A DNA stretch of 34,217 nt, taken from a virus. Below the pieces are notes generated by a model, which worked only from the letters and a program-made list of their open reading frames with translations, searched no databases and was not told the origin of the DNA. Below are positions 27,823 through 31,635 of this stretch, one piece after another. The stretch covers positions 1 to 34,217 of IMG/VR virus record IMGVR_UViG_3300043409_001579; one strand, given 5' to 3'. Position 1 is the first letter of the stretch. Each line of letters starts with the position of its first letter. The position numbers were made by a program, and so were the translations under genes.

Positions 27823-27875
27823 CATAACGGTCGGGGCTAAACAATCGTTTTAATGTTGTTTTAGACCTTGTTAGA
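27823..27875 (+). repeat. attC-like imperfect palindrome, first site
   Basis: TAAC-GGTC (27825-27832) and CTAAA (27837-27841) pair with TTTAG (27860-27864), GACC and GTTA (27870-27873), with unpaired bases between blocks. Outer TAAC/GTTA ends and interrupted inner arms are the general layout of integron attC sites and of related intergenic elements in Flavobacteriia genomes. Base composition is more GC-rich than the phage around it. Confidence 0.4.
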
Positions 27876-27982
27876 AGAATGTGTTTTTGGAGTGAGCTTG
27901 TCCGTTTTAAATGTAACGGCATTGGATAACAGCTTAATAGTATTTGACGATAAATACAGCTCCAAAAACATTTCTTTCTAAC
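27870..27982. repeat. 113-bp element bounded by 23-nt inverted repeats
   Basis: GTTAGAAGAATGTG...TTTTGGAG (27870-27892) is nearly perfectly complementary to CTCCAAAAACATTTC...CTAAC (27960-27982). Between them are two smaller stem-loops: CCGTT/AACGG and GTATTT/AAATAC. The ends GTTAG and CTAAC are shared with the two attC-like sites on either side. It could be a MITE-like element, a degenerate cassette, or a branched RNA. No gene fits inside. Confidence 0.5.
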
Positions 27983-28050
27983 GTTTTGCAGCTATGCGCA
28001 GCCTTGTGTTGCGCCTGCGGCAAGGTTGCGACATAGGTGCTGTTATAGGC
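27978..28050 (+). repeat. attC-like imperfect palindrome, second site
   Basis: CTAAC (27978-27982) pairs with GTTA-TAG (28042-28048). GCAGCTATG pairs with CATAGGTGCTG with two extra-helical bases, and CGCAGCCTTG (27997-28006) pairs with CAAGGTTGCG (28021-28030). The top loop is GC-rich. Terminal CTAAC/GTTAG, an offset spacer and bulged bases on one strand are diagnostic features of attC recombination sites, though sequence similarity to named attC sites was not tested. Confidence 0.5.
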
Positions 28051-28102
28051 TGTATTTAAAAGTTTTGAGGGAAAGAAACGATTAATCAATTAAATAATAA
28101 AA

Positions 28103-28459: not shown

Positions 28460-28489
28460 TGCGTTGGTAAAAAAACTTTTAAATATTGC

Positions 28490-28521
28490 CACTAACGGTT
28501 CTCGGCTTTGCGAAGCGGTGG
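28490..28521 (+). repeat. attC-like half-site after the cassette gene
   Basis: CACTAACGGTTCTCGG followed by CTTTGCGAAGCGG resembles the left half of the sites upstream, with the same CTAACG start and a small GC-rich stem (CTT-TGCG-AAG). A matching right half with GTTAG is not seen downstream, so the element is truncated or was joined here to phage DNA. Confidence 0.4.
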
Positions 28522-28589
28522 ACTTTAAAAAACAAATGTTGAATTTAAAACTAAAGATAAAATGAAAAACAAAAATGTTGTAGTAACCT

Positions 28590-29590
28590 AACAGCAGTGA
28601 TGCAGATAAAACACTAAATGCCTATGGTAATGTCAGCTATATGACAACTAACAACATTATATACCTTGAATAAGTATAGACTATCCTGTAATGGGATTCA
28701 TTCAGTATGTTGTTAAAAGCAATCTTTGATTACTACCTTCAGAGGTCTTAGGGTCTCACGGTGATTGCGTAAGTAATAAAACCCCTTAAGTTGGGGTTAT
28801 GAAACTAAGTGTATTGGGCTGATTTCAAGTCCTTAGAATAACTTGTGAATTCATAAGCAAGGAAAGTGTGCGCCCTCTCAAGAGCATATGCACAGATATA
28901 AATATCTGGTCATTAGAAAATCAATATCATAACATATTATGTAGTAACTTCGGGCAGAGGTGAATGTAGTGTGTGTTAGGGCAAACCACCTTAACTTGAG
29001 CAGTAATGCTGACAATCTGATATTGCTTCATCTCCAAAAGCTCGTCAAGCTTATAGAGATGTTGATGAAAATGTTATTTTATTCCTATTAGTTGCCAACA
29101 ACTTATGCTTGTGGAAAAGCATCAGAAATGGTAGGAGTATAGACAGAAGTAAATTGAGTAGCCTTGACAGGTGAAAATAAGAATGTGTTTATAGCTAAAC
29201 TACTCAAAAGGTGGCATGCTGTTAAATGCAATCACACGTTCTAAAATGGTATTGAGATTAACTATATATAAACTATATATAAATCGAAAAGAGTATTGCA
29301 TCCATAGTATTGAAAATACAGTTATCCTACTGCAATATGTAGGCTTCATTAGTACCTCAAGGAACGTGAATGGTTTGAAACAAGTAAACAATTATTAAGT
29401 GCAGGGATGCATTGAGCTCTTCCAAGAGGATAAGGTTGAAAGGAGTAATTCATAATATATTATGGAGTTTGTTGCTAGTCATAACTAGTCTGTATGCTTG
29501 TGTACCAACAGAAATGTAGGTGTGTAATACAATCGAAAGATTGTTGAAAATCACAAGCTTTAAGGGTCAATTACTCAGCCCTTATTTTTA
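28590..29590 (+). ncRNA. Large structured RNA candidate, about 1 kb (GOLLD/ROOL-like style)
   Basis: No credible gene lies between 28,460 and 29,655; stops are dense in all frames. The block has long, nested, perfectly paired stems enclosing further stem-loops: TAACAACAT (28649-28657) with ATGTTGTTA (28707-28715); CAATATCA (28922-28929) with TGATATTG (29018-29025), enclosing AGGTG/CACCT and AGCA-GTAA-TGCT (28999-29010, GNRA loop); TTGAGTAG (29154-29161) with CTACTCAA (29200-29207), enclosing GTTTA-TAGC-TAAAC; TATTGCA (29294-29300) with TGCAATA (29331-29337), enclosing GTATT-GAA-AATAC; and CAATC-GAAA-GATTG (29530-29543, GNRA loop). Simple hairpins include AACCCC/GGGGTT (28780-28798), CAGATA/TATCTG (28893-28908) and ATGCTT/AAGCAT (29105-29122). 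A terminator ends it. Size, multibranch layout and nearby tRNA-like genes recall giant phage RNAs. The 5' end is not fixed. Confidence 0.6.
29561..29590 (+). terminator. Terminator of the large RNA
   Basis: TAAGGG (29561-29566) pairs with CCCTTA (29579-29584) around a 12-nt loop and is followed by TTTTTATTC. A second hairpin (TTCTTAT against ATAAGAA, about 29588-29633) follows before the next gene. Confidence 0.65.
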
Positions 29591-29655
29591 TTCTTATCAG
29601 CTAGACTGTGCATCTTTGATGATAAATAAGAACTAACCCTTAAATTCCACAAAAA

Positions 29656-30489: not shown

Positions 30490-30570
30490 GTAAGCGGTTA
30501 CCATGAAAACAGTTATTAGTCTGTAAAACTAACAAATGGGTGTAATGCCCTGTTATTTCTTAGCGGTTAA
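30490..30570 (+). repeat. 49-nt repeat, copy 1, flanked by GCGGTTA motifs
   Basis: Positions 30506-30554 are identical to 31587-31635. The unit folds as AACAG/CTGTT closing two hairpins: TTAGT-CTGTAAA-ACTAA and GGG-TGTAATG-CCC. The first hairpin has the exact loop of a tRNA-Tyr anticodon arm (T33, GTA, A37). Only in this copy it is bracketed by GTAAGCGGTTAC (30490-30501) and TTAGCGGTTAA (30560-30570). It may be a small RNA, a leader element, or a tRNA-derived remnant. Confidence 0.6.
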
Positions 30571-31498: not shown

Positions 31499-31587
31499 GG
31501 TCAAATGGTGTAAGTGGAAATAAATACCACCAAGGGTAACAGCTCTGAGAAAGAGAGATGCAGGTTCGAGTCCTGCTTTGACCACCA
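31499..31587 (+). ncRNA. tRNA-like gene with encoded CCA but no normal anticodon arm
   Basis: Acceptor GGTCAAA/TTTGACC (31499-31505, 31577-31583), discriminator A, encoded CCA (31585-31587) and a perfect T arm GCAGG-TTCGAGT-CCTGC show tRNA origin. A D-like arm TGGTG/CACCA has a 17-nt loop with GG. The middle gives only CTCT/AGAG stems, with no loop having T33 and an anticodon. It could be charged or processed at its 3' end like a tRNA yet be unable to decode. The second 49-nt repeat begins at its last base. Confidence 0.5.
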
Positions 31588-31635
31588 AAACAGTTATTAG
31601 TCTGTAAAACTAACAAATGGGTGTAATGCCCTGTT
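31587..31635 (+). repeat. 49-nt repeat, copy 2
   Basis: Identical to 30506-30554, about 1.1 kb apart. It starts at the terminal A of the CCA of the preceding tRNA-like gene, so 3' processing of that gene would release the repeat. The TTAGT-CTGTAAA-ACTAA hairpin is kept. The flanking GCGGTTA motifs of copy 1 are absent. Confidence 0.6.

Follow-up and report, generated by a model that had tools for sequence, protein, structure and literature searches.

A gene-free block in a fragment of a crAss-like phage is, with a probability of roughly 0.9, a phage gene that encodes a divergent GOLLD RNA about 1 kb long. The block is homologous to GOLLD and has a conserved, strongly covarying two-domain fold joined in the GOLLD manner, and its place in crAss-like phages is fixed: it lies upstream of the terminase/portal/capsid module, in divergent orientation. 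The window, by which we mean the whole stretch of DNA analysed (34,217 nucleotides), had been read before from its letters alone. That sequence-only reading proposed a member of GOLLD or ROOL or a new class like them; a full-length covariance-model match, conserved GOLLD helices and covariation narrow this to a divergent GOLLD, neither ROOL nor a new class. The features of the gene are collected in Table 1.

Table 1. Features of the proposed GOLLD RNA gene, in window coordinates
Feature	Positions	Strand	Evidence and remarks
Whole RNA gene, divergent GOLLD, about 1,016 nt	28577..29592	+	Colinear 71% identity to G013
5' leader	28577..28714	+	Helix 28649-28657/28706-28714; well conserved only in G013
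Core	28715..29583	+	Aligned with 10 further records
5' domain of core	28715..29179	+	Alignment A2
Pseudoknot 28822-28825/28918-28921	28821..28922	+	97.7% paired, 3/4 pairs changed on both sides
Long-range helix 28922-28929/29018-29025	28922..29025	+	Encloses further helices and GNRA hairpin 28999-29010
3' domain (GOLLD model positions 1-416)	29180..29581	+	RF02032
First 3'-domain hairpin, (U)CAAAAG loop, internal loop	29180..29242	+	Rfam alignment, pair-count helices 15-17
7-bp pseudoknot 29226-29232/29295-29301	29226..29301	+	Spans AT-rich linker (about 29243-29290)
Pseudoknot 29316-29321/29490-29495	29316..29495	+	98.5% paired, 4/6 pairs changed on both sides
Pair of hairpins equated with GOLLD L21a/L21b	29399..29428	+	Rfam alignment
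GAAA-capped hairpin	29530..29543	+	GAAA in 11/11, stem covaries
3'-terminal hairpin (CUCAG loop) and T-rich run	29562..29592	+	Rfam alignment, pair-count helix 27

Inside the block we found just two overlapping antisense ORFs (60 and 63 aa), in agreement with its earlier description as free of genes. A conserved protein frame and an absence of covariation had been named as findings that would speak against a structured RNA. We looked for both: the 11 homologues have many stops in every frame, 32 of their 273 internal gaps are multiples of 3 and no frame is conserved, while covariation is present, leaving the reading unrefuted. One of 50 terminase relatives, G013, has a copy with 71% identity along 1,016 nt, and from where this identity starts and stops we put the RNA at about 28577 to 29592; the earlier reading had left the 5' end unplaced. 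It had also seen no promoter, and our scan, for sigma-70 types, gave no signal above chance. As a single sequence the block is unremarkable, and its stems are not above chance: it has 12 perfect stems of at least 7 bp, against 7.2 ± 3.0 in shuffled sequences (10 of 100 shuffles equal or exceed it), and its fold energy is just modestly low (z -2.6 on the plus strand and, lower still, -5.7 on the minus strand; 20 shuffles). The comparative evidence is decisive.

In an Rfam search at a permissive threshold, the GOLLD model (RF02032) matched the 3' domain along all of its 416 positions (59.3 bits, E 1.4e-14), and the ROOL model had no match in the window up to E 10. The curated (gathering) cut-off for GOLLD is 150 bits, and a scan at the gathering threshold reported the tRNA-like element described below alone; at 59 bits, far under the cut-off, the RNA is overlooked by routine annotation. 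Nine other distinct copies match RF02032 at full length with 65-104 bits (maximum 103.5), and three more (G037, G057 and G062), unreported by the model at E 0.1, were found only by profile. Four canonical GOLLD phages (L176-L179: Streptococcus, Acinetobacter and Mycobacterium phages and one 635-kb phage), taken through the same route as positive controls, scored 190-287 bits. The window and every other copy fall short of 150 bits; as this line serves curation and describes no structural trait, we file the block as a divergent GOLLD with this reservation.

Homologues were gathered by the terminase search, by DNA patterns from conserved pieces and then by profile searches. Besides G013, these yielded G034, G044, G037 (identical to G054), G057, G058, G059, G060, G061, G062, G063 and G064, making 13 distinct copies: the window and twelve further. 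Eleven core sequences, all but G060 and G062, were aligned without structure (alignment A2). RNAalifold predicted 154 pairs on A2, 120 of them with changes on both sides. Covariation was assessed against a home-made null modelled on R-scape, in which substitutions are reshuffled over columns along the tree; at E<0.05, 35 of 191 RNAalifold pairs (ribosum scoring) and 15 of 94 Rfam-projected pairs were significant. A helix scan gave 19 helices with a score of at least 4.0 (12 null alignments reached 2.0 at most) and revealed three pseudoknots.

The resulting 143-pair structure (three pseudoknots included), partly derived from the alignment on which its pairs were counted, has 97.1% of cells paired, against 70.2 ± 0.8 when shuffled and 35-45% when slid, and both sides changed in 113 of the 143 pairs, against 33-39 in slid controls. 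The GOLLD structure projected from the window's Rfam model alignment provides a test independent of these copies. It is 75.6% paired (62.4 ± 0.8 shuffled, 36-43% slid), both sides changed in 52/94 pairs, beyond all shuffles and slides, and its covariation is 0.453 against 0.193 ± 0.012; its helices 5-8, 10, 11 and 14 are weakly kept in A2. In per-sequence shuffle tests the pseudoknots were mostly not significant on their own, all of their support coming from the alignment, and when pseudoknots were searched for again with loose anchors, the expected strands were not recovered.

Of all helices in the RNA, the 8-bp long-range helix of the 5' domain covaries best, with 100% of cells paired, 6/8 pairs changed on both sides and a scan score of 13.0 (null maximum 2.0). 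The sequence-only reading had picked it out (28922/29025), together with a stem 28649/28715; the latter exists as the leader helix and is kept in G013, where two pairs are changed on both sides. The GNRA hairpin at 28999-29010 (AGCA-GUAA-UGCU), also noticed then, is retained with compensatory changes. A model of the 5'-domain element 28917-29029 (R1) found no match in the four canonical GOLLDs (L176-L179) or in 21 reference phages, in agreement with the lower conservation of the GOLLD 5' region (PMC12286853). By eye, a short ACAGGTGGTGCTG motif is common to the 5' domains of G057-G059 and of the canonical L176 and L179.

In the 3' domain, consensus GOLLD helices are retained with covariation, some helices not being kept, and the variable linker with structured arms is present as an AT-rich segment of variable length. 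The pseudoknot across this linker has 100% of cells paired and 5/7 pairs changed on both sides, one pair being significant among all column pairs. The second GNRA-type hairpin of the earlier reading (29530-29543) is conserved throughout A2, and the terminator it had placed at 29561-29590 proved to be the conserved GOLLD 3'-terminal hairpin (5 bp, 5/5 pairs covary) followed by a T-rich run, which is likely the 3' end or terminator of the RNA; a simple terminator scan, covering loops of 3-8 nt, did not report this hairpin. Two other stems were not borne out. No helix forms at 29154/29207, where 29200-29214 is a conserved hairpin of its own with a CAAAA loop, nor at 29294/29337, whose arms belong to the cross-linker pseudoknot and to a hairpin at 29326-29330/29339-29343. 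Of the earlier observation there thus stand the lack of genes, two of the stems, both GNRA hairpins and the 3' hairpin.

The block might instead belong to a different large phage RNA class that has converged on GOLLD-like hairpins. The score under the Rfam cut-off, the failure to find the 5' element in the four canonical GOLLDs and the weakness of some Rfam helices would all fit such convergence, but it sits poorly with a colinear full-length model match in ten distinct copies and with the covariation of the projected GOLLD structure. Moreover, a 7-bp complementarity equivalent to the cross-linker pseudoknot, which is absent from the Rfam structure line, occurs in three of the four canonical GOLLDs. 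We consider convergence quite unlikely.

The genomic position of the gene is shared among its carriers. The window has a terminase (matching phrog_6681, E 2e-115), a portal and a major head protein of crAss-like families, so the RNA is phage-encoded as in GOLLD; the nearest named relatives of the terminase are Crassvirales, at about 34% identity, and from the phage group we infer a Bacteroidota host. Structural genes lie on the minus strand and, beginning at about 26.5 kb, small genes on the plus strand; the RNA gene is on this plus side, 6.7 kb from the terminase in the upstream direction and in divergent orientation. CrAss-like phages hold 11 of the 13 copies (all but G059, whose group is not assignable, and G062, whose structural genes are those of other tailed phages; the synteny count excludes both), and in 11/11 of these carriers the RNA lies on the strand opposite to the terminase, 4-13 kb upstream of it, where genes are sparse. 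A phrog_6681 TerL is present in nine further records.

This location near the boundary of divergent gene modules, where several relatives without GOLLD have gene-poor gaps of 0.5-1 kb, would also fit a mainly cis-regulatory or replication region (a divergent promoter or an origin) with incidental folding. However, those gaps do not match the window RNA, which itself sits about 2 kb inside the plus-strand module, away from the strand switch, and compensatory changes run throughout 870 nt, which points to selection on RNA pairing; we regard this explanation as highly improbable. Least probable of all is a GOLLD RNA that has decayed or lost its function in the window phage: the window has the lowest score of the ten copies reported by RF02032, but the covarying helices are still paired in its sequence and pairing is near complete overall.

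The GOLLD RNA remains recognisable where terminase identity to the window drops to 22-25%. In the terminase tree, carriers are spread over several deep branches, intermingled with non-carriers, and the groups of the RNA tree differ from it (G044 groups with G058, and their terminases lie apart). The discordant trees and scattered carriers would fit an ancient RNA that was lost many times, or else one that moved from one crAss-like phage to another while keeping its position. Among close TerL relatives (about 60-68% identity), the majority had no GOLLD RNA, which is weak evidence of absence since viral records are fragments. Likewise, neither RF02032 nor R1 found GOLLD in the 21 reference phages sharing the TerL family of the window, a negative that is no proof of absence given that RF02032 misses 3/13 copies and R1 misses G060 and G062. 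A blast search of the RNA in annotated phages returned nothing relevant (matches of only 26-28 nt in Listeria and Enterococcus), and a pattern scan of genome contigs gave three matches, none significant against the profile. In the literature searched, with subscription journals mostly outside it, we found no paper naming GOLLD together with crAss-like phages or crAssphage.

Several other elements were observed in these genomes. Gene-poor gaps of 0.5-1 kb that hold no GOLLD occur upstream of terL in L012, L027, L031, L006, L010 and other terminase relatives, and some of these gaps are patchily related to one another. In the gut phages cr272/cr273, an unannotated gap shares a 60-bp element with the flank of G060 and contains no GOLLD; in the pig-gut crAss-like phage cr273_1 (NC_055904.1) this gap measures 2 kb (L153:9369-11366) and includes a twister-P1-like ribozyme match below the cut-off (L153:9485-9540, 32.7 bits, E 1.2e-4), the 60-bp element lying directly 3' of GOLLD in G060. 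The 172-kb carrier G037 (L141) has in-frame TGA codons within its terminase, which suggests TGA recoding. GOLLD RNAs are often encoded beside tRNA genes: in G034, tRNA and tmRNA genes lie within 5 kb of the copy, and none are near the copy of G044.

In the window, a tRNA-like element (31499-31587; 33.8 bits in Rfam) lies 1.9 kb downstream of the RNA. It has a clear acceptor stem, a T arm and an encoded ACCA end; ARAGORN gave no anticodon for it. A direct repeat of 55 nt, 96% identical, occurs at 30500-30554 and 31581-31635 (spacing 1,081 nt), the second copy starting at the ACCA end. Upstream of the RNA, palindromes resembling integron attC sites (27824-27881, 27975-28052 and about 28487-28545) flank small plus-strand ORFs, and 53 bp of the third are common to Flavobacterium phages (81-83%); these may be candidate cassette-like insertions. 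A partial ORF at 33711-34217 matches spore photoproduct lyase (Pfam SPL, E 4e-13), and in G034 its relative consists of two pieces, about 1 kb from each other, with 83-86% identity.

The most distinctive variation concerns the loops that would mediate cage contacts. In the env-38 GOLLD, the self-kissing loops L21a and L21b hold two half-shells together (PMC12286853). The branch pattern, together with the GC/CG dinucleotide described in that work, leads us to infer that the hairpins at 29399-29428 are L21a/L21b. Their loops in the window, GGGA (29404-29407) and UUCC (29420-29423), are mutually complementary, and this pair occurs in six copies (window, G013, G034, G037, G057 and G059), in which self-complementarity of the loops extends to no more than 2 nt. 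In the other seven copies GGGA and UUCC are both absent, and almost all loops contain GC- or CG-type dinucleotides. The mutual complementarity suggests a heterotypic contact, as a hypothesis drawn from the sequences of related copies that are not independent. More tentatively, the RNAs could form a separate crAss-like GOLLD branch, with one genomic position across deep lineages, its own 5' domain and a heterotypic L21a-L21b kissing pair (GGGA/UUCC) in place of two self-kissing loops. If heterotypic kissing is true, the RNA cage would be assembled by a different contact rule.

GOLLD RNAs build hollow cages larger than a ribosome, env-38 GOLLD forming 14-mers (a homo-14-mer cage), and ribosomes or tRNAs have been proposed as cargo; we know of no established function for any GOLLD cage. 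By analogy, the RNA described here would be transcribed as a discrete species during infection, fold without protein and self-assemble like env-38 GOLLD into a closed multimeric cage that has the AT-rich linker in its interior. Such a cage may enclose or sequester a host or phage macromolecule, the leading idea for GOLLD, and its likely role would be that of an infection-time self-assembling RNA cage. The cryo-EM structure of env-38 GOLLD is a closed cage, and for other GOLLDs, expression is reported to rise as phage-infected cells lyse, and pull-downs to show binding to ribosomes (PMC12286853).

Our results add crAss-like phages, with one fixed position in their genomes, to the places where GOLLD occurs; annotation had missed these copies because every one of them scores under the Rfam cut-off. 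With relatives at the same position in eleven crAss-like records, a well-defined phage group becomes available for studying GOLLD; the divergent copies supply the covariation required for resolving its variable 5' domain, and offer a testable change in cage contacts.

Among known systems, ROOL is, like the window RNA, a large ornate phage RNA; it forms a hollow multimer, is often found near tRNAs, and was published as distinct from GOLLD in sequence and fold. The ARRPOF RNA (RF02933) is likewise large and structured; it has no match in the window, and its score in G034 is at chance level (13.3 bits against a cut-off of 127). With GOLLD, the window RNA shares its phage origin, a length above 800 nt, a less conserved 5' domain, the cross-linker pseudoknot and the order of the 3' domain: hairpins, variable linker, closing helix, two-hairpin branch and CUCAG-loop hairpin. 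Unlike canonical GOLLD, the branch described here scores 59-104 rather than 190-287 bits, occurs in a crAss-like phage context, has a 5' element for which the four canonical GOLLDs gave no match and, in six copies, carries paired GGGA/UUCC loops in contrast to the self-complementary L21a/L21b loops of canonical GOLLD.
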